Below are positions 2,089 to 21,871 of a stretch of DNA of 27,137 nucleotides, piece by piece. Made by a program: the position numbers and the translations under genes. Source of the stretch: a virus; the IMG/VR virus record IMGVR_UViG_3300030118_004349, positions 1-27,137 of that record. One strand, 5' to 3'. Numbering within the stretch: the stretch's first letter is position 1; every line of letters starts with the position of its first letter. The notes under the pieces are model-generated. The model saw only the letters and a list, made by a program, of their open reading frames with translations. It was not told the DNA's origin and made no database searches.

Positions 2089-5000
2089 TTATGCTACAAC
2101 CGAGGTTACACCCTCTCGATCAGTAACTTTCACTATAGTTTTGCTGTCATCTGGTATCACTTTAGACTTGCCATCACTATTCTTAGCCACATCCTCCAGT
2201 CTGATACCCTCCCTAAACCCATTGGCTATCTCTCTTAACAATTCCTTATTTTCAAAGAATAATTCCCCCACTCTATTTACAGGCATACGGCTATACACGT
2301 CATACCAAGTAAACGTAGTCTTTCCATAGGTAGTAATTAAATAGTCTATGACATCCTTGAGCATGAAAGATAAGCCCAATGAGGAAGGCGGCGAAGAACT
2401 TAGCCCATACCCTCCTCCGCTAACTGAAAAGAAGGTTTCGATGTAGTCCTCTTCAAGATATTCAAAGCCCACGTTTTGAAGGCTTTCCTCCTCTCCAATA
2501 CCAACTCGGGTTTTATCATCCTCCAATTTTAAGTTATAAAATCTAAATGCAGGAGGAGTTCTAGCATCTACGGAAGAGTCGATCGCGGGAGCTACCTTTA
2601 GAGCCCTAACATGTGTAGAATCTTTTGAAATTAATTTAGATCTTGTGTTTAGAGGATTAAATTTACCACCCGCCACGGGAGTGACTACAAATCCAAAGGG
2701 GATATTCTTTACGAATCTAGCTCCAATAGATGAGAATGCCTTATCTTCAAATCCTACTAAATTAAAGTCATTTAAAGACGCTGTTAGGGATGATGTGTCC
2801 AGAATGTATCGATATATGGGATCACGATAATCAACACAAAGCATTGGAGTAGTGAATGCGTTATTGTTAACATGCCTTTCAATATCAGCACTAGCGGTCA
2901 GTAGCACATAATTGGCAGTATAATTTTCAACAAGAGAGTTAGTAGAATATTCTCCCGACACTGAACTGAGATCCAAGGCAAAGAACAATGGGGTAACTGC
3001 TGAAGCACCTAGATCGTCAGCAACAAATTCATGTTTATTGGGTAATGAGGATGCCGTGATTGTTATGCTGGACTCTATGCCCAACATATCCAATACCCTA
3101 GCTCTAACAGGCGCAGGTGCAAAATATGAATCATTTATTAGGCTATCTGTGTAAAGTGGCTTTACAGTCCCATCCGAGCCCTCAGCAGAAACATAGTAAC
3201 CTCCACCGTCTCCTATATTAATTTTATCAGCGTAACCTATAACAGGCCTAGTAGTAGAGTCTTCAGGGTTGATTGCACTAATATCAAACCCTTCATTAGG
3301 AATTGATATAAAGTCAGTTGTGCCGTCAAGCTTGTCAACGCTAACTCTGATATTCATATCCTCGTTTAAAGGTCTAATCCTATTAACCTCAAAGTTGTCG
3401 CGAGGCTCCGGTTTATCATTTTTAAAAGTATTTAAATTGTTTATCAAATAACTTATTGCTAGCTCCTCAGCACGCTCTTTCTCTTTAGGAACTTCAATTA
3501 ACTCAAACTTAGAGGATATTTGACCCTCTGCTGCTTGTATGTAAAAGTCTACGTCAAACTCATCAATAGTTCCTTCAAGTAAATGCTTTCTAATAATGCT
3601 AGCTAAGACACTGGTACCTACCACTTTTCCACCTACGAATCTTAGAAACTCAAAAGCATTTACCAAATCAGTGCTAAGGCTTCTAAGTATTTTATCGTCG
3701 GTCAGGTTTTGTAAAGTTACCTCATCCCAAGCTGCGCTAGTGTTTGAGATTTCCAAAACTCTAGACACCTCAACAGCTATTTCTTCTGCAAATAGTTTCC
3801 TATCGAAGGTATGACTAACAAAGACATCGGGGTTTAAAGGTTCAACGGAAAAGAAATTAAAGGTAGGGTCAAAAAGATTTGGGGTTATCTTGCCAAGAGA
3901 ACTTCTTCTTTTATCTTCGTTGAGTCCCTCTCCCACTGTTAATGGATTTATAATCTTAGCATTAGCCTGAACTTGATTTTGAACAACAGAATTTTGTTCA
4001 GGTATCCTTATGAAGGGTGTTCTGTTCGGCTCAGGATCTGGCTGTACAATATCCGCGAATCTGTTAGGTATTCCTAAAGGACCTGCTGGAGTTGGGCCTG
4101 GGGGGTCGCCGGGTTCAGGCCTATTAACTCCACCTAAAGAATTAGTTGCGTCCATGCAAAACAACTCTATCGGTTGCTGACCTGTAGTAGTAACATTTGC
4201 TATGAAAGTACATCCACCCTGGTCACATGCAGCTTTTGTATCAAATTGACAAGGACCAGTAAAAACTGAAACTTCTGGAATCATAACAGGAGGAACTTTA
4301 AAGAAACCTCCTTGCCCAATAACTGGAGGAGAGAAAAAGCCAGGGTTAGATTGAGTTACCGTGATAGATGTTCCCACCTGCCCAGAATCTTCTGTTTTAC
4401 AAGGCAAACATTCCTGCTTCTTAATTCTGTAAAATTCACCTGCGCGAGGCGATCCAGGTGGACAAAACTCTTTTTCAGTAACACAATTAAACTTATCTTT
4501 AGGACCCGTGGTGGGAGTCGCTACGCTAGGGCCAGTGGGCTGAACATCTCCAATTTCGTCTTCAACAAAACAGGGATATATCGGTCCATCAACACATTCG
4601 CCTCCACAGTTTGCATCAAAATAATTGCAACCTACTTCAATGTTTGGATTCTGACAGGGTTGGCATTCTTTTATTATTTGAGAAATTTGATTGCCCGCTG
4701 GGTGGTTCGATATTGTACCCTCGGGACAAGGTACACTTTGTACTTCTTTGCATTTAAATCTTTGAAATTCCCCTGAAGGACAAAGTTGATTTACACAAGG
4801 CTCCAGCCCAACATCGTCGCAGTTATCATTCAAATACTGGCACTCTGGCCTACCAGGAGGTGGCATGATAGTAGACCTCAGAGGATTTCCAGCTTCATCT
4901 AAACAAGGAATGCATGCCCTGAGGATAAACTCAGATAGCGGAGATCCAAGTCCAAATCCAGGTTCAGAACCAGCAGGGCAGTCCTCTCTAAGTATATCTT

Positions 5001-5193
5001 TACATTCAAATGTTGGCGGTGCAGGAGGTACCTGAGGATCAAATGGAGGTTCAAGAGTTCCAAAAGGATCAGTCTCACTGCCTACAAGAACCCCACCACC
5101 GCCACCAGCGTTGCCGCCACTTCCCCCTGGGTCTTGCCCAGGGCGTTTACCCTTACCACAGGGAAATAAAGTAATATCTCCTGCGACAACCAT
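2089..5193 (-). CDS. Large virion protein with Cys-rich modular N-terminus (1034 residues)
   Basis: I do not recognise a named family. Residues 1-60 are Gly/Pro-rich (Gly run 23-34). Residues 64-346 carry 25 of what appear to be 26 cysteines. They fall into three A modules (C-x6/7-C-x17-21-C-x2-C at 64-97, 148-180, 237-265) alternating with three looser B modules (118-138, 189-208, 315-346). The A modules contain CPxG and C-x-PC elements like those of eukaryotic TNFR/GCC2-type Cys-rich repeats. After a Pro-rich hinge (about 355-400), the remaining 600 residues look globular and mixed alpha/beta, with one Cys. There is no obvious signal peptide. It follows two fibre genes, starting 5 bases after the stop of the first, and precedes the head genes, so a tail-fibre, whisker or surface-display role is inferred. 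No good ribosome site precedes the ATG at 5193; coupling to the upstream gene is likely. Confidence 0.85.
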   Translation of the reverse strand: MVVAGDITLFPCGKGKRPGQDPGGSGGNAGGGGGVLVGSETDPFGTLEPPFDPQVPPAPPTFECKDILREDCPAGSEPGFGLGSPLSEFILRACIPCLDEAGNPLRSTIMPPPGRPECQYLNDNCDDVGLEPCVNQLCPSGEFQRFKCKEVQSVPCPEGTISNHPAGNQISQIIKECQPCQNPNIEVGCNYFDANCGGECVDGPIYPCFVEDEIGDVQPTGPSVATPTTGPKDKFNCVTEKEFCPPGSPRAGEFYRIKKQECLPCKTEDSGQVGTSITVTQSNPGFFSPPVIGQGGFFKVPPVMIPEVSVFTGPCQFDTKAACDQGGCTFIANVTTTGQQPIELFCMDATNSLGGVNRPEPGDPPGPTPAGPLGIPNRFADIVQPDPEPNRTPFIRIPEQNSVVQNQVQANAKIINPLTVGEGLNEDKRRSSLGKITPNLFDPTFNFFSVEPLNPDVFVSHTFDRKLFAEEIAVEVSRVLEISNTSAAWDEVTLQNLTDDKILRSLSTDLVNAFEFLRFVGGKVVGTSVLASIIRKHLLEGTIDEFDVDFYIQAAEGQISSKFELIEVPKEKERAEELAISYLINNLNTFKNDKPEPRDNFEVNRIRPLNEDMNIRVSVDKLDGTTDFISIPNEGFDISAINPEDSTTRPVIGYADKINIGDGGGYYVSAEGSDGTVKPLYTDSLINDSYFAPAPVRARVLDMLGIESSITITASSLPNKHEFVADDLGASAVTPLFFALDLSSVSGEYSTNSLVENYTANYVLLTASADIERHVNNNAFTTPMLCVDYRDPIYRYILDTSSLTASLNDFNLVGFEDKAFSSIGARFVKNIPFGFVVTPVAGGKFNPLNTRSKLISKDSTHVRALKVAPAIDSSVDARTPPAFRFYNLKLEDDKTRVGIGEEESLQNVGFEYLEEDYIETFFSVSGGGYGLSSSPPSSLGLSFMLKDVIDYLITTYGKTTFTWYDVYSRMPVNRVGELFFENKELLREIANGFREGIRLEDVAKNSDGKSKVIPDDSKTIVKVTDREGVTSVVA

Positions 5194-5198
5194 TTTAA

Positions 5199-7904
5199 CT
5201 AGTTACAAATTACAGTGGGGTCGTTGAAACTCATCTTATTACCGGAAGGTCCAAAGGCATTACTTAGAGCGTCGGGACCAACACCTACAACTTCCCATTG
5301 AACGGAAGGGTAAAGAAGCGAAGCAGCCGCATTAAAATACTGAGGTTTAGCAAAGTTAGCTGCGGTTGGATCAACTCCGTTATTAGCTAATAGGTTAAAG
5401 TAAGCTTCTCTAATGCCAGAGGCTCTTGAAAAAGACTCACCGGCACTCTCAGCGGCATTAGTTACGAATGAGCCCCCCACTTTAAGCTGCATCTGTGGTT
5501 GAGCAAATCCAGCAAACTTCTCTGGATTGTCTCTGTCTGCCCACGGGAACAAGTCGTTTACTGAAGTGCCCGTTTGAGAGGTTCCCACGTTACTACCAGC
5601 CCATGCCACACAAATTACAAAGTAGTCCTTATGTTTTTGAACCCAAACATTGGAAGAATTTCTGAATCCAGATTCGTTCTCAGAAGATTTCTTACCCTCC
5701 GACAGTGGAGTGCAATTTAACAGATTAACCTTTACGTGATAATCTTTTACCCAAGGAGTATTCTCAAGATTTAGATTAATTCTTTTAGATACGAAATTAA
5801 TTTGTGCATATCTAGAGTTTAAGGAAGCCAGGGTTAACTGGTTCATATCAGCCAGTTCAGGGGTGGGGTTGCCTTCTGCCACTATTGGGAAATCAGATTC
5901 AGGACCACCCCATTGATACATCGCAAACCTATTTGTGGATGCTGCTGCTATCTCAGCTACAGTGGTAACTGCTCCACCGCCCGGCTGACTTATCCAAGGA
6001 GGTAAGAATTTACCCAGGTTGTTAGCGGTGGTGTGTTCTACGAGCCATGGGGCTGCTATGTTAATGTGATCACATATTTTGTTCCCTGTAAACTGACCAC
6101 GCTTATACCAATTAGCTTTATCCCAGTTTGGGAGGTAGGGAATGGACCCGTTAGGGTAGCCAAACTCACTCTCTATTAAATCAGCTAATTGATTTAAAGG
6201 CACAGTTAGGAGTCCACCTCCGGCATTAGCTTTAGCTAAACGCATCAATGCGCCCTCAGGACCGTAGAAACCTCCTAAAACATTCCCGGTAGCTATGGTT
6301 CTAGAGCCAGTATTGCTGCCTCCTCCTCCCCCACCAAGCGAGGTCGGAGGAGTTGTAGTGGTTGTGGTCGTGCCACCTGTAGTAACTGTTGTTGTTATGC
6401 TAGACTCTATGGTGGTTATCCTATCGCTAAGAGATTTAAATACTCTTTTATCAGCGGCATCAACATAAGCCTCAGTAACTACTGGATTTGCGATTGATAC
6501 TTGAGGAGTAGCGGCAGCTATTCCCGCACGCTCATTGTATGTTAATTCTGTTGTCCTAAAGAAAGGTCTTATATCTATGATGTCTTCATTGGATATAATA
6601 TTGGTTATCGGACCCCCTCCAGCAGCACTCCTAACTCTAATGTAAGCAACAGGGAATATTGACTGACCTATCAATGCAAGGGAGGTAGACTCCAAGTTTT
6701 CAGACAACACAGGAGCTAAATTCATCAAATCATCAGGGGAAGGGAAAGAGCCTCTGATTCTACCTCCAGAAACAGTAAACCCGTTATTACCGCTAATATC
6801 CCCAGGGTGACTTAGCATTACCGGAATACCATCTAAGCTTTGAAGATTAATTCTATCATCAGCTTCAGAGCCAGTAGTTCCTGCCTCTCTAGAAAGCCCT
6901 ATGCCTGCTCCTTTAAGTATTCCCAGTGTGGGAGTAGTTATAGTTGTGGGATTGCCGTTAGCATCAAACTTAGAAATAGTAGTGGATTCCGCATCCACAG
7001 GCTTACTATACACAAACAGTAAGTCCAATCTCTGAGTGCAATTAAGATTTGTTCTTAAACCATCAGAGTCAATATAGTAAAAGTCGTTTTCATCAAAGTC
7101 TGGTACAGTAACCTCCAACTCCTCTGCTACATCAACAACGGAAGTTCTTACCGCACCTCTCCATCTCTTTATGAAGTCGGATTCAACTCTGCCTTGCTCC
7201 GAGCCCGATTGAGGATTATTTGGGTCGTTTGTAAAAACATTTCTTAAAAGAGTTAAATTACGAGTTAGGTTTGGAGAAGCAGATTCAAACAAGGCTCCAA
7301 TAACATTAGGGTATAGAGGTCTTTCATTTGGATCAAAGTCAATGTCAAAAGCTCTGTAGTTGTTAGTAACAACATTCAGAAGATCTGGGCCTCCGTCAGT
7401 GCTCGTACCGTCTAGAGTGTCTATTGGGAAAACAAAAGCTCTCTCAGCTAAACCGTTCATATTTAAAGCGGCGCCGTTAATGCCCTGCTGAAAAATGTCT
7501 AAGACAGATGCCGCAACTGATCCATTAGCTGTATCAGTCTGGTAAGTGTTCATGACCGTAGGGTCGTCAAGCCCTCCTATTTGGGTAATAACCTGGAGTG
7601 GAGTTAGAGTATACGCATCATTAATTCTAGCAGTATATCTACCGGGCTTTACTCTAACTTTTCTGTCGCTCCCCGTAACAAAAGGTTTCAACTCCGAGAA
7701 TCCAGACCTATCTATCTCTAGATTTAGATTATCGGAGTCGGTGATAATACCATCAATTTGATCTCTTAAAAACTTTTGCGATTCCTCTAACTGCTTAAGA
7801 GGAATATTATCAATCTCAAAGTAGTAAGGATCGTTCGCTTTAAAAACCCTAATAGGGTCTATAAACGTAAAAGGCGAATCGTAGTATCTAATTTTATCAG
7901 CCAT
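5199..7904 (-). CDS. Tail-fibre/adhesin-type structural protein with Thr/Gly linker (901 residues)
   Basis: This is a two-part protein. Residues about 27-42 (PYYFEIDNIPLKQLEE) match a motif near the N-terminus of the upstream beta-helix protein, which suggests a common attachment element. The region up to about 500 ends in DIIDIRPFFRTTE and YNERAGIAAATP, a pattern I associate with fibre/baseplate proteins of marine myoviruses (recollection, not a search). A low-complexity Thr then Gly linker follows at about 500-535. The C-terminal 365 residues form a separate domain with FGPSG near the end, possibly the distal receptor-facing part. ATG overlaps the upstream stop (TAATG at 7904), and TTAGGAAG lies upstream as a plausible ribosome site. 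I see no enzymatic motif. A fibre role is inferred from architecture and location. Confidence 0.85.
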   Translation of the reverse strand: MADKIRYYDSPFTFIDPIRVFKANDPYYFEIDNIPLKQLEESQKFLRDQIDGIITDSDNLNLEIDRSGFSELKPFVTGSDRKVRVKPGRYTARINDAYTLTPLQVITQIGGLDDPTVMNTYQTDTANGSVAASVLDIFQQGINGAALNMNGLAERAFVFPIDTLDGTSTDGGPDLLNVVTNNYRAFDIDFDPNERPLYPNVIGALFESASPNLTRNLTLLRNVFTNDPNNPQSGSEQGRVESDFIKRWRGAVRTSVVDVAEELEVTVPDFDENDFYYIDSDGLRTNLNCTQRLDLLFVYSKPVDAESTTISKFDANGNPTTITTPTLGILKGAGIGLSREAGTTGSEADDRINLQSLDGIPVMLSHPGDISGNNGFTVSGGRIRGSFPSPDDLMNLAPVLSENLESTSLALIGQSIFPVAYIRVRSAAGGGPITNIISNEDIIDIRPFFRTTELTYNERAGIAAATPQVSIANPVVTEAYVDAADKRVFKSLSDRITTIESSITTTVTTGGTTTTTTTPPTSLGGGGGGSNTGSRTIATGNVLGGFYGPEGALMRLAKANAGGGLLTVPLNQLADLIESEFGYPNGSIPYLPNWDKANWYKRGQFTGNKICDHINIAAPWLVEHTTANNLGKFLPPWISQPGGGAVTTVAEIAAASTNRFAMYQWGGPESDFPIVAEGNPTPELADMNQLTLASLNSRYAQINFVSKRINLNLENTPWVKDYHVKVNLLNCTPLSEGKKSSENESGFRNSSNVWVQKHKDYFVICVAWAGSNVGTSQTGTSVNDLFPWADRDNPEKFAGFAQPQMQLKVGGSFVTNAAESAGESFSRASGIREAYFNLLANNGVDPTAANFAKPQYFNAAASLLYPSVQWEVVGVGPDALSNAFGPSGNKMSFNDPTVICN

Positions 7905-10900
7905 TAGTTATTCTTCCTAAGATCAAAATTATTAACAGAGTTTAGACCCTTTGATTGGCCTGCATCATCCGAGTCTCCACCGAAACCCTTTATCGGGTAA
8001 TATCCCTCAACTACTTTTGCTAAAGTGGATTTACCAACCATGTTGTGTTTAGCATTGGCAAAAGTATTTAAAGCAGAATCATCTAAGAAAGCTTTAGTGG
8101 TTGTTGGGTTTACCATCATTGAGCTAACTTCATAGAAACCTATGGAAACAGTTTCAGCCCCGTCTCTTTTAAGCAACGAAGTGTATTGGGCGCTTGGCTC
8201 AAAGTCTTGACCAGAAACCGCGCTAAGATTGCCTAAGAAGGGATATCCCTGAGAGAATAACTGATAAGCCACACCGCTCAAGTTGCTGGTAGTGTAACCT
8301 GGAACGGTGCCCACCAAGAATTTGGATGCAGGATCCACTGAGAAAAAGAGTCTGAATGGTCCTATGTTTTCAGCGTCAGTCTTACCAAAGGGGAACTCAG
8401 TGCTGTCTGGCCTTGCTCCATAGTAATCTAATATCGACAAAGAGCTAGTGTCTGGCAACGTGGTTGGTGCGCCTGATATAATAGCCCCAGTATCGTAGTT
8501 ACCCCAAACGCCAGAGGGTCCAAAGTAATGAGACGAGGTGTCTCTCGGGTGGTTACCGCTTACAGATAGATACGAAGCCTCAAGAGTTGAGTCACCAGCT
8601 ATATTCCAAATGAAAAGTCTGGTACAGTTGGGTCCACCTAGAGGGTTAGATCCATCGATGTCATAGGCATAACCAGAGCTATGATATCCTTCATACCTAG
8701 CTGGGAAGTGTACATTATGAGCGTTGACTGTACTATTACCTAAAGCTCGTACACACATACCTCCGGTGGTGATTGTGTCGGCGTTGTTAGCCGCAGGTTT
8801 GAGGAATCTAAATCCTGCGGCTCCTGTATCAGTTTGAAAATTGTAGAGAGAATTGTTGTTAACAGGGGTATTCGCTATCACCGTACCAGTAACTGCATCA
8901 CCATTGGGGTAAAATTCAATAAACCCGGCGCTGGTGTAAGTTTTCAAATCTGAATCCTCGAAATCATAAGAAGCATCAACGGTGCTCGCATAAGCGCCAT
9001 TCCAGTAGCTTTGATAGTCTCCTAAGTTCTCCATTAAAATGTTGGAATTATTATCAGCAACTAGACAAGCTCGGGTGGAGTGTAACTCTACCATTGTATG
9101 GTTATCATTTTCCTCCAAAAGGAAAGAGGACACAAGCAAGTCACCCTTCTCATTTTGATGAGGAGTTATTCTAATATTAGAGTTATCTTCAGCATACGCA
9201 TCAACACCAAACTGAGCTATGACCGTGGGACCTTGAATGTTTAGGGTTGAGTTCTTATTAGCGTATAACCCTGCCATGTTAATTTGCTTGGTCCTAGTGT
9301 CGGGGCCAAAGATAGTGTTGGCAATACCTGTAATGCCTGAAGCATTACCGGACCCTCTAATTGTAACTTTTGAGTTATCAGTAGCTCTTATAACTCTGCC
9401 AAAAGTTGCAGCGGGCGTCGTAGGTTGAACTTGCTCCACAGCATAGACATGCACAAGATCCAAATCAGATCCATTGATGGCTTCAATAGTGGGCTTTAAC
9501 TGAGAGGTGTCACTGTCCTGAACTCCGTGAGTACCACTTAGAGATATCGCATTGTAAAGCTCAGGCATAGAGCTAGTCATAAGAGGCATTATCCTGGAGT
9601 TATTACTCTTTATGCCTTGTCCGTTAAAAATTAAAGACAATTGACCTTGCTGATACTCCTTAATTAAACTATCATTTCCTATGACTCCCCCATACAAATC
9701 TTTATTGTAAAGGAACTTAGATAGATTTAAATTAAGGCCTGTGGACTGGCTAAACCTAATTGCACACTTATCAATGTTTAACTCTGAATTTGAAGAATCA
9801 ATTCCGAAATAGTTACCATCCACTAAAAGCTTACCTGAATAATCTAGAACACTGTTCTCCATCTTTATACCGGCTTCAGTGTTAAGTTCACAGAACAAGC
9901 TTCCTGTGTCAGCTTCCTTGCCATCAGTAGTCTGCCCAGCTTGAGTGAAGTCATTTTGAGCAGTTCCTCCGGTCATCTTGGAATTTACTAAATGAATACC
10001 AATGTCGTTCCGCGAGAAGCAGGACAACTCTTCTCCCACGGGATTCGCCACGATCCCAGAAGCATTTGAATTTGCCTTTATAGTGGCGTTATAAGGTGCG
10101 TCATAAGCATCTTTATTGAATTGCAGAGATCTCTCATAAGCAGAATCAAAGTCAATAGTAGAGTTTAAAGCATAAATACCAGCACCATAAACATCTTGAA
10201 TACCATACGCTTTTTGTTTTACTGAGAAATCTTGGCCTTGCCTAGTTGAGGCAACTTCTTGGTAATTCCTATACGCCACCATGCCTCTAAGAATAGTAAC
10301 CTCTGAGTTGTCAGCATAAAGGCCAGCCTCGTTGCATCTAGCAATAGCGCATCTTTCTAGATTGACCGTAGAGTTCTTTACTTCTATACCTCTATCTGTT
10401 GCATGTTGACCGTCAACATTAAGATTTCTAAGGAATATGGGTCCTCTGCAATTATTGACCTTAACGTAATCTAGTTTGTTAAAATAGCATATACCCACAG
10501 CAGCATCTCTACGATTATTGGTTACAGCGGTGTTACCCCATTTAATCTCAGTGCCGTCAACCTCATTGATAGTGCTGGCGTCAAATGCACTGGGAACAAG
10601 ATCAAAAGCATCAAATCTAATATTAACGGAGCTAAACCCATCCTCAGTGTAGCCCGCTCTGGTAAAGGGATCAGCGGTGCTGCTCAAAGACGCTGTCATT
10701 CTAACATTACGAGAACCGTTAATCCTTCGAGTATACACATAAGGATTGGTAAACCTTTCATCCGTAAATCCACTGGCTTGAGTTCCTGAAGAGATAAATA
10801 TCTCATTACCTGACTCATCCTTAGTAAATAACCTGGATCTCCACGCGTCTGTAGCTAAAGAAGGCACTCCGCTTGCATTTCCGTCTGCGCCAATGGCAAG

Positions 10901-11422
10901 CGTTATGTTGACGGAGTCTCCCTTGGGTGTGTATCCTGAGGCTAAACCATAGTCGTTACCCTCACTAAAGAGCAGAGAGCCTTTATGAGTTCCACTGGCG
11001 TCATACCCTCCTTGGTAAGAACTGTTTCTATTGATTATCTCTAAAGAACCACTCGGCCCGAAAGATTTATTAGAAAGATCTAAACCCCCTAAATTGCCAA
11101 AGCTAGCTATCTCTATTAGTATAGGGTAGTTAATAACTTCAGGCAGAGCAGCGACGCAGGAGCTTAAAGTTGTAAAGTATAAAGGCTTACATGCGTCTGT
11201 AGCATCCGCTGACACAATAAATGAAAATCCAGTTAAAGCTGACGTGGGATGCCCAAGTTTTTCCCACAGAAGATGAGTTCTTTCATCCAAATCATGTAGG
11301 GGTAAATTGTCTTGCTCAAAATTATAGAAAGAACTAGCATCATGCTTAGTGACCTTATCGGTCCAGCAGACTAATAGTTCGTTAGAACCACCTGATACAT
11401 ATACGTCGCTTGGGTTAAACAT
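7904..11422 (-). CDS. Right-handed beta-helix tailspike-like protein (1172 residues)
   Basis: The protein carries about fourteen imperfect copies of a G-(I/L)-x-x-x-N-S-x-(V/I/L) unit between residues about 340 and 900, for example GIEVKNSTVNLE, GLYADNSEVTIL, GIYALNSTIDFD and GIKMENSVLDYS. This is the signature of a parallel beta-helix with an Asn ladder, as in pectate-lyase-like phage tailspikes and adhesins. The N-terminus carries FYNFEQDNLPLHDLDE (32-47), shared with the next gene product and probably an anchor. The C-terminal 270 residues are non-repetitive and may be the trimerisation or binding tip. I cannot identify catalytic acids, so polysaccharide depolymerase versus simple receptor binding is open. 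It starts 1 base after the stop of the 204-residue gene, with GGAT as a weak ribosome site, and overlaps the next gene by 1 base. Confidence 0.88.
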   Translation of the reverse strand: MFNPSDVYVSGGSNELLVCWTDKVTKHDASSFYNFEQDNLPLHDLDERTHLLWEKLGHPTSALTGFSFIVSADATDACKPLYFTTLSSCVAALPEVINYPILIEIASFGNLGGLDLSNKSFGPSGSLEIINRNSSYQGGYDASGTHKGSLLFSEGNDYGLASGYTPKGDSVNITLAIGADGNASGVPSLATDAWRSRLFTKDESGNEIFISSGTQASGFTDERFTNPYVYTRRINGSRNVRMTASLSSTADPFTRAGYTEDGFSSVNIRFDAFDLVPSAFDASTINEVDGTEIKWGNTAVTNNRRDAAVGICYFNKLDYVKVNNCRGPIFLRNLNVDGQHATDRGIEVKNSTVNLERCAIARCNEAGLYADNSEVTILRGMVAYRNYQEVASTRQGQDFSVKQKAYGIQDVYGAGIYALNSTIDFDSAYERSLQFNKDAYDAPYNATIKANSNASGIVANPVGEELSCFSRNDIGIHLVNSKMTGGTAQNDFTQAGQTTDGKEADTGSLFCELNTEAGIKMENSVLDYSGKLLVDGNYFGIDSSNSELNIDKCAIRFSQSTGLNLNLSKFLYNKDLYGGVIGNDSLIKEYQQGQLSLIFNGQGIKSNNSRIMPLMTSSMPELYNAISLSGTHGVQDSDTSQLKPTIEAINGSDLDLVHVYAVEQVQPTTPAATFGRVIRATDNSKVTIRGSGNASGITGIANTIFGPDTRTKQINMAGLYANKNSTLNIQGPTVIAQFGVDAYAEDNSNIRITPHQNEKGDLLVSSFLLEENDNHTMVELHSTRACLVADNNSNILMENLGDYQSYWNGAYASTVDASYDFEDSDLKTYTSAGFIEFYPNGDAVTGTVIANTPVNNNSLYNFQTDTGAAGFRFLKPAANNADTITTGGMCVRALGNSTVNAHNVHFPARYEGYHSSGYAYDIDGSNPLGGPNCTRLFIWNIAGDSTLEASYLSVSGNHPRDTSSHYFGPSGVWGNYDTGAIISGAPTTLPDTSSLSILDYYGARPDSTEFPFGKTDAENIGPFRLFFSVDPASKFLVGTVPGYTTSNLSGVAYQLFSQGYPFLGNLSAVSGQDFEPSAQYTSLLKRDGAETVSIGFYEVSSMMVNPTTTKAFLDDSALNTFANAKHNMVGKSTLAKVVEGYYPIKGFGGDSDDAGQSKGLNSVNNFDLRKNN

Positions 11423-19249: not shown

Positions 19250-21871
19250 TTAACTTAGATCAATGTTTTTAAAGAACTTTTCAGTTGCTCTGTAGTTATT
19301 TAGCACTTCCGCGTCATCTAAGGCTTTTGAGTAGATTCTCGTACACCCTACATATCCTCGAAGTCCACTAACTTTCCCGCCGAAGGATCCTCCCATGAAG
19401 TTTCCAGATGAGTTGCCATCAGTGTAACCTCCTCCAATTATCCAGGGGGTAAAGAACGTATCAAGAGCAGGCCCTTCCTTAAGATCAGAAATTGAATCCT
19501 CATCAATTCTAGACTTTGAATATTCAAAAGAATTATCTAAGAATATCGACGGCGCCCTGTATACTTCACCCTCTCTGGTTGTTCCAAAAACTTCTGAATA
19601 TTGCTCAGTTTTAAGCAAAACACCATCTAAATAAATCTTTACAGAATTTTTAGCAGGGTTTAAAGTTAGAGAAAGCTGACAGAATTCGTCTTTACAACTG
19701 GATAGTGAAACTCCATTGATGACCGAGCTAACAGGAATTACGAGCCCTCTAAGCGAATCCTTATCACAATCGTCCCCTCGATTAGCTATAAACCCAACGG
19801 TAGAAGATGAATTAGACTGCGTAGGTGCTAGAACTAATGACAAGTCGCTCATTGGATTGTCGTTAGGGTTGTTACTAGCTGCCTCATTGAGTGTGAAGCG
19901 ACGATCTCTAGTAAAACCGTAAACCACACCTCTGACTATGTTAACTCCACCATCCTTATCAAGGTTTTCAAGATCGGCTTGAGGTTGAACAATTGTATTG
20001 ATTCCCGTGTTTTCATTAGCTAATATTAGTCTGTACAATGCTGACGTATCCGCACTGCCGACCTGATAGCCAGACAGATCAGTTAAGGCTGGGACATTAA
20101 TCCAAGTCTCAAAGGTAGAGCCCAGTTCGTTGTAGAATATATCTTGTGCTCCTGAGACTTCTGGAAGTTTAACATAACTACCGACAGCCGAGAGAACCGA
20201 ATTATCTGCTGTGTCCAGCTTGCAAATGCCGTCGAGTTTTGCTATACCTAACCCCTTGTCAAAGACAGAAGAAGTTGAGCCCACTATTTGACCGTTTGCT
20301 TTTTCCTGATGAACACTACTATTTCTTAAATCAAAGAATTGCTTGCCGTCTTTAGGATTACTAAAGTCTGCTGTCAGATAGTTGTAAAGTATCTCTAGAT
20401 TGTCCTCAACAATTCTAGTATTGATTTGTAGACTAGGTCCTGCCGAAGTGGAGGATACGTTGTTGATGACCTCGCCCTTTGCAATATTTGCTAAATAAAT
20501 ATGCTCCAGCACTAACGGATCAGAAGTGCTTATCTTTTCGGTAAACTTAACTTCTAATGGTAGAACAACCCCAGTTACATCATCTTGATCAAGAACAATA
20601 TCTCTCTGAGCGTCTATATCTACTAAAAAGTTAGCTCCTGCCAGATAAGAGAAGTCGTTAACGGGAATTTCTCCAGGATTGAAGAGAGGTGCATTGGGGA
20701 CAAAATTGGGAATCTTAACAGCTAATTCAATCTGTTTTTTCCTTTTATTTATCTTATCTTGGAAGGATGAAGTTTGAGACAATAAAACTTGTCTAGCATT
20801 ATCAATAACAGCTTGCGATGCTCCAGCGGCTATTAAATCCGCTAGCTCACCGGACACATCAAAAACTTTCCTATCCTTTTGACCCTCTAAGTTTAGAAGT
20901 AACTCGTCACCTTGGTAATAGCTCTGAATACCTACAGAGTTATCAATAATATTAGGATCTAAAATATTGTCAAAGTAAAACCTTAGATCTTTAACGGTTG
21001 TTGGTCTACCTCGTCCACCAAGGCTAGGATCAAACTCTAATCTCCATAGATTGCCATTAGGAGCAGCAGAAGTGCCTTGTAGGCTATCTTCTCTCTGAGA
21101 CAACTCTAACAGTGCGGGTTCAATTCCACTGGTCTGAGAATCATAGTAAAGGCCGTCTACAGATAATACAAACTTACCGCTTCTGGACTTTGGAGGTCCA
21201 TTGTCGAGTCTGAATACTGACTCTGTAGTCACAAGTTCTTCGTCGGGCTCTAAAGAAGGATCAAGAGATCGCTGTAGGAGTATATTATCTATGACAGCTA
21301 TCTGCCTATCTGCATCATCTATAAATGCTTGAGCTTGCTCGGCTTGCTGAAAATAAACTCCAAACTGAGAGTTTATCATGTCATCAAACGCTTGCGGATC
21401 TTTCTCTGCAAGCTCTTCTCTTCTCTCAGAAGCACTACCATTTGTAAAGTCTAAGAATTGCTTGTATTTATCCAAACATTCAACTGCTGCCTCATACCTT
21501 GCTTTAAGCTCGTTTGCCGCCGCAATTGCAGCTTGAGCAAAGCCTATGAACGTGCCTATTACCCCTGTTATCCCCCCTATTACATCTAACCCCATTCTGG
21601 AAAAATCTGAGAAGTAGCCAAAGAAACCATCTCTGTTTGGGAATAGAGAAATTCCTAGTAAATCTCTAATGTATGAATTAATCCTCCTGACTATACCGTC
21701 AGCTATGGCTCGACCCACAGCTAGACTATGGCGCATTGCTAATAGGATGGGGCTTGGTACGAGATTCAAAACCTCATTAGCCATGTTTAGCATGCAAGAG
21801 GGAACTCCCAAAGAAGTGCCTATATTGGCACTACCTCCAGACTGTAGAAAACTTTTTGCGTCAAATCCCAT
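19250..21871 (-). CDS. Baseplate-region structural protein with C-terminal LamG/concanavalin-like domain (873 residues)
   Basis: The N-terminus has LGVPSCMLNMANEVLNLVPS (20-39), a pattern I recall from cyanophage structural proteins. A hydrophobic Gly/Ala-rich segment follows at about 94-117 (VIGGITGVIGTFIGFAQAAI and beyond), then a long helical stretch to about 205. The middle is beta-rich. Residues about 577-865 read as a laminin-G/concanavalin-like jelly roll: STFETWINVP, KNSVKIYLDGVLL, and the typical end GYVGCTRIYSKALDDAEVLN. Such domains usually bind glycans. The gene lies between the spike and gp25, which places the product at the baseplate. The 1-base overlap at 21871 couples it to the spike gene. 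The hydrophobic segment could be a membrane-insertion element or simply a buried helix. The LamG call is good; the function is not known. Confidence 0.83.
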   Translation of the reverse strand: MGFDAKSFLQSGGSANIGTSLGVPSCMLNMANEVLNLVPSPILLAMRHSLAVGRAIADGIVRRINSYIRDLLGISLFPNRDGFFGYFSDFSRMGLDVIGGITGVIGTFIGFAQAAIAAANELKARYEAAVECLDKYKQFLDFTNGSASERREELAEKDPQAFDDMINSQFGVYFQQAEQAQAFIDDADRQIAVIDNILLQRSLDPSLEPDEELVTTESVFRLDNGPPKSRSGKFVLSVDGLYYDSQTSGIEPALLELSQREDSLQGTSAAPNGNLWRLEFDPSLGGRGRPTTVKDLRFYFDNILDPNIIDNSVGIQSYYQGDELLLNLEGQKDRKVFDVSGELADLIAAGASQAVIDNARQVLLSQTSSFQDKINKRKKQIELAVKIPNFVPNAPLFNPGEIPVNDFSYLAGANFLVDIDAQRDIVLDQDDVTGVVLPLEVKFTEKISTSDPLVLEHIYLANIAKGEVINNVSSTSAGPSLQINTRIVEDNLEILYNYLTADFSNPKDGKQFFDLRNSSVHQEKANGQIVGSTSSVFDKGLGIAKLDGICKLDTADNSVLSAVGSYVKLPEVSGAQDIFYNELGSTFETWINVPALTDLSGYQVGSADTSALYRLILANENTGINTIVQPQADLENLDKDGGVNIVRGVVYGFTRDRRFTLNEAASNNPNDNPMSDLSLVLAPTQSNSSSTVGFIANRGDDCDKDSLRGLVIPVSSVINGVSLSSCKDEFCQLSLTLNPAKNSVKIYLDGVLLKTEQYSEVFGTTREGEVYRAPSIFLDNSFEYSKSRIDEDSISDLKEGPALDTFFTPWIIGGGYTDGNSSGNFMGGSFGGKVSGLRGYVGCTRIYSKALDDAEVLNNYRATEKFFKNIDLS

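Follow-up and report, generated by a model that had tools for sequence, protein, structure and literature searches.

Our analysis suggests that a gene of an uncultured phage probably encodes a tail- or baseplate-associated virion protein in which three tandem eight-cysteine disulfide domains are carried on a flexible, Gly/Pro-rich N-terminal arm. The gene lies in a viral sequence of 27,137 nucleotides (IMG/VR record IMGVR_UViG_3300030118_004349, positions 1 to 27,137), referred to here as the window. Disulfide-rich repeats of an extracellular type would not be anticipated in a protein that folds inside the bacterial cytoplasm. Further, the phages concerned are uncultured, and the protein had no match in the cultured-phage collection searched.

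Organization of the cysteine-rich protein

The array is part of a 1034-aa open reading frame on the minus strand (2089..5193), whose ATG at 5193 is 5 nt past the stop of the preceding gene; all parts of the protein given here are read from that strand. It begins with a conserved N-terminal motif (..FPCGKGKRPG.., residues 1-23, 5125..5193), followed by a Gly/Pro-rich linker that differs among relatives (residues 24-63, 5005..5124). Three units of eight cysteines come next. Unit 1 (u1) extends from C64 to C138 (residues 64-138, 4780..5004) with spacings of 7, 21, 2, 20, 6, 7 and 4, unit 2 (u2) from C148 to C208 (residues 148-208, 4570..4752) with spacings of 7, 20, 2, 8, 6, 3 and 7, and unit 3 (u3) from C237 to C346 (residues 237-346, 4156..4485) with spacings of 6, 17, 2, 49, 7, 4 and 17. 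A Pro-rich linker (residues 347-424, 3922..4155) joins the array to a conserved body (residues 425-1034 plus the stop, 2089..3921), for which the AF2 model is confident (pLDDT 85.7, pTM 0.86).

A prior sequence-only reading had placed a cysteine-rich stretch at 5004 down to 4156 on the minus strand, and this does correspond to residues 64-346 of the frame. The spacing that it gave for its A modules was also correct. It counted 25 cysteines in these residues, however, and our recount gave 24; the whole protein has 26, the other two being C12 and C786. With a cysteine background of 0.65% in the other open reading frames of the window, the probability of finding at least 24 in 283 residues is ~3e-19. 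We looked for DNA tandem repeats, and none underlie the three units. Searches of Pfam, PHROGs and INPHARED with the 1034-aa protein returned no match.

The eight-cysteine domain

The units share the layout A1-x6/7-A2-P...A3-x2-A4...B1-x6/7-B2-x3-8-B3...B4, with a long A4-to-B1 loop in unit 3. Spacings were listed for 29 complete units, and 32 units entered the domain alignment. Every complete unit contains A together with B. An AF2 model of window unit 2, built with the 32-unit alignment, reached a mean pLDDT of 92.3 and a pTM of 0.67, and consists of a two-strand beta hairpin (5-14, 29-38) together with short strands and one small C-terminal helix. Because A and B co-occur in all complete units and fold as one unit in the model, we take A plus B to be a single domain. 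Thus the cysteine-rich stretch described earlier as A-B-A-B-A-B is real, but its separate A and B modules make better sense as a single eight-cysteine domain present three times.

Comparison of the domain with known folds brought no credible match. A single unit had no Foldseek match in the PDB at E <= 0.001, and its best and only VIA row was a thrombospondin type-1 didomain (Z 2.2, rmsd 4.6 over 55 residues). A sequence profile search of the PDB found no relative of the domain above chance. The domain was confined to this gene in all related contigs and loci that we searched, and it appears to be previously undescribed.

Orthologues in uncultured phages

Viral contigs were scanned with the protein, with its 901-aa syntenic neighbor (5199..7904, minus strand), which served as bait for relatives, and with alignments of each. 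The scan with the neighbor alignment gave 189 encoding stretches, 80 of which were kept. These searches revealed that many uncultured phages share the family in synteny, with the orthologue as the next gene in each relative examined. A tblastn search of INPHARED with the window protein, the 901-aa neighbor and distant relatives gave no match, and LR756511, a 595 kb uncultured phage whose gp6 and capsid make it the nearest record, had no orthologue of the body or the domain in the 48 kb examined.

Orthologues range from 639 to 2137 aa and follow one plan: the N-terminal motif, a Gly/Pro-rich region whose length varies widely and a body of ~600 aa. The body is conserved over most of its length, and the N-terminal Pro/Gly-rich region holds anywhere from 0 to 82 cysteines. 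Each of the 60 family members whose N-terminus is complete has a cysteine within its first 20 residues. This cysteine is kept even in members free of array cysteines and would be a single one outside the even set described below. Extreme members include L046:12508-18921 (2137 aa, 82 array cysteines), L068:10257-14534 (1425 aa, 60), L052:3078-7277 (1399 aa, 46) and L042:12576-16310 (1244 aa, 50). Minimal four-cysteine modules (C-x6/7-C-x~21-C-x3-C) occur in L046, L068, L039, L040 and L070. Three near-identical phages (L027, L028 and L029) differ in their number of GPTTTGPTGPSTGGPA-type linker repeats.

The sequence-only reading proposed that close homologues lacking the cysteine pattern would speak against it, and the outcome is divided. 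Close homologues keep the eight-cysteine unit and differ in copy number, but L023, L101 and L103, with a body identity of ~40%, have no array cysteines. The 639-aa orthologue in L113 has two cysteines and no detectable eight-cysteine domain. Given the array-free members and the varying copy number, the array is a variable accessory rather than an essential fold. With the paired gains and losses described below, the comparison points to a disulfide-bonded arm that is longer in some phages than in others. In the window protein, the array has its nearest counterparts in L026, L031, L024 and L032 (134-160 bits), whereas the body most resembles those of L020, L018 and L001 (55% versus 40%). We do not claim exchange of arrays between lineages, since descent from an ancestor with three units, some of which were lost later, fits this mismatch equally well.

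Paired gain and loss of cysteines

Array cysteines are even in number in 51 of 53 non-redundant orthologues, with counts of 0, 2, 4, 6, 8, 10, 14, 16, 18, 22, 24, 38, 46, 50, 60 and 82. The only odd counts, 13 in L044 and 7 in L078, belong to sister tips. The start of the body was extrapolated from the profile match in these counts, and the boundary between array and body was set by hand for L050 and L070. Parity counts are phylogenetically non-independent, and kinship was corrected for in part with a body tree, on which ~27 changes in count were accompanied by one change in parity. When parity was randomized per count class, the mean was 11.2 parity changes and none of 2000 trials reached one. 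Control cysteines showed no such bias (body, 30 even and 23 odd; 901-aa neighbor, 35 even and 31 odd). A preference for even cysteine numbers is accepted as a signature of exported, disulfide-bonded proteins (PMC7678975).

Units with six cysteines also changed in pairs. Among the 17 examined, A2 and B4 were lost in 10 and A4 and B1 in seven, and no other pair was lost. Such units occur in more than one clade of the body tree, although homologous units could share one event. Because these losses are coupled, we infer disulfides A2-B4 and A4-B1 in each unit; A1, A3, B2 and B3 would supply the other two of four intradomain bonds when oxidized.

The same patterns bear on whether the cysteines instead bind zinc, or an Fe-S cluster, and so let the domain fold while still in the reducing cytoplasm. 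The C-x2-C and C-x3-C spacings look like metal knuckles, and the scattered weak matches include a zinc-finger family, PF07754, for one unit (E 0.011) and a ferredoxin model for another (E 0.13). However, the six-cysteine variants drop non-adjacent cysteines and keep C-x2-C or C-x7-C halves, so that every simple CxxC/CxxC site is broken and intact four-ligand sites are not conserved. There is no conserved His, and counts are even throughout the range of 0 to 82, units of four and six included. We therefore regard metal binding as unlikely; the cysteine patterns speak for disulfides rather than for zinc or Fe-S. The sequence-only reading had offered metal binding or oxidation after lysis as alternatives. 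Its option of oxidation outside the reducing cytoplasm now has evolutionary evidence, while the paired non-adjacent losses and the even-number rule disfavor its option of zinc or Fe-S. We also considered a phage-encoded thiol oxidase, and a search for thioredoxin in 16 related contigs, which are fragments, gave no match; this counts against the disulfide reading, as do the two odd counts.

Gene neighborhood

Genes upstream match the gp53, gp25 and gp6 baseplate (wedge) families in Pfam and PHROG, and downstream is a head protease whose start is inside the window. In relative L009, a gp23-type capsid gene and a head-tail adaptor follow the protease. Thus the gene belongs to the baseplate-head block of a gp23-type phage, with capsid and protease read in L009. 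Its flanking genes in this T4-like phage are baseplate genes on one side and head genes on the other, so the array protein likely sits in the virion tail. The label of structural protein given to it earlier is backed by this gene context and by conservation.

Alike as the block is to the T4-like one in its gp53, gp25, gp6 and gp23 neighbors, it differs in that nothing in Pfam or PHROGs significantly matches the cysteine-rich protein or its neighbors of 901 and 1172 aa. Comparison of the body with the PDB and BFVD by Foldseek and VIA gave no credible fold match. Kinship between the body and the 901-aa neighbor was considered and rejected, since profile comparison shows none. The two large neighbors (5199-7904 and 7904-11422) have N-terminal motifs that are alike (PYYFEIDNIPLKQLEE / SFYNFEQDNLPLHDLDE) and that may represent a common baseplate-attachment segment.

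Discussion

Disulfides are not new to phage tails. The contractile tail of Agrobacterium phage Milano has many disulfides in its sheath, baseplate and receptor-binding proteins, and these proteins can be linked in this way yet remain functional (PMC10811340). This raises the question of whether array cysteines in the window protein likewise cross-link neighboring tail proteins as a contraction lock. The Milano baseplate, sheath and receptor-binding proteins set a precedent for such cross-links (PMC10811340), and the N-terminal motif cysteine, present in all complete members with or without an array, could be one such link. For the array itself, however, cysteine numbers that are even per protein and per domain, together with compact single-domain folds, fit intrachain pairing, and a network between subunits is quite unlikely. 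The bonds listed for Milano are also mostly inter-subunit and join ordinary tail proteins, in contrast to a dedicated array of intradomain eight-cysteine units with variable copy number. Disulfide-linked tails are thus already known, and an array of disulfide domains that varies in this way seems to be new.

The domain also invites comparison with cysteine-rich modules of cellular organisms. TNFR and GCC2-GCC3 repeats are likewise short, tandem and cysteine-rich, with C-x2-C elements, and the sequence-only reading had likened the A modules to them. This likeness found no backing in Pfam, PDB-sequence or Foldseek matches; the TNFR and GCC2_GCC3 Pfam profiles matched neither the whole protein nor any of 32 single units. 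The window domain differs in having eight cysteines with predicted 2-8 and 4-5 pairs, a pairing unlike the TNFR pattern. The [FY]xSxxxCxxxC ending and the AF2 hairpin with a short C-terminal helix resemble Kunitz/BPTI domains, but the window-type domain has eight cysteines, with an extra A4-B1 pair and B4, and shows no significant sequence or fold match. Acquisition of passenger adhesion or protease-inhibitor modules (Kunitz/Kazal/TNFR-like) from cellular organisms could be read from that ending, which may be reminiscent of the Kunitz C-terminus, from a sub-threshold Kunitz match to the four-cysteine mini-modules of L039 (E 0.1), and from a PDB sequence comparison in which a Kazal entry matched marginally (E 0.53). 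All such matches fall below cut-off, however. Kunitz PF00014 scored 13.2 bits against a gathering score of 21, in L039 only and nowhere in the window, no Foldseek match was obtained at E <= 0.001, and the domain is known from this phage gene alone in the related contigs and loci searched. Such an origin is distinctly improbable. Neutral drift of a dispensable, low-complexity linker would accommodate the array-free members L023, L101 and L103 (~40% body identity) and the much shorter L113 orthologue, but strict cysteine parity, coupled losses and conserved eight-cysteine spacing require selection, making drift very hard to credit.

Taken together, these considerations favor a disulfide-domain arm on a tail protein, and a sequence of events can be proposed. 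The fixed parts would be the short N-terminal motif and the C-terminal body, with intervening domains gained, lost and remodelled by lineage. The protein would be made and assembled in reduced form in the host cytoplasm, and the domains would lock through oxidation on release or perhaps late in infection. Once oxidized, they would form an arm that resists protease and denaturation and projects from the distal tail. Because motif and body are constant while the cysteine domains between them vary, we predict that the arm is an exposed accessory element. Our best guess is that it acts as a variable spacer or a weak adhesin, binding surfaces with low affinity during the search for a host. More tentatively, and with less than even confidence, we suggest that this phage-restricted family provides an 'oxidation-set' tail arm across a large uncultured T4-like clade, soft and reduced in assembly and then locked once released, its number of domains (0 to 82 cysteines) being tuned to host or environment. 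An array that ranges from 0 to 82 cysteines yet stays even offers a natural test case for oxidative folding in virions. It also yields cysteine pairings that can be tested, a new family of domains and a candidate for a variable element of host contact.

Host and other genes of the window

The L113 relative is QCKN01000003.1, a 130-kb phage-like contig with a gp23-type capsid in the single-cell genome of Prochlorococcus sp. AG-409-P03. It is a possible link of the clade to Prochlorococcus, by way of one distant relative's single-cell genome and not the window phage. We considered psbA as a host marker and set it aside, as it was present only in the Prochlorococcus genome, where it sits on contig C2 and the phage capsid gene on C3.

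Two further genes of the window, both on the minus strand, may be mentioned. A small acidic protein (1639-2034) carries a CPLCESELD...C motif with three cysteines (four in L112) and has counterparts downstream in L001 and L112. The 873-aa tail protein at 19250-21871 has a weak LamG/concanavalin-like match (Pfam E 8e-4).
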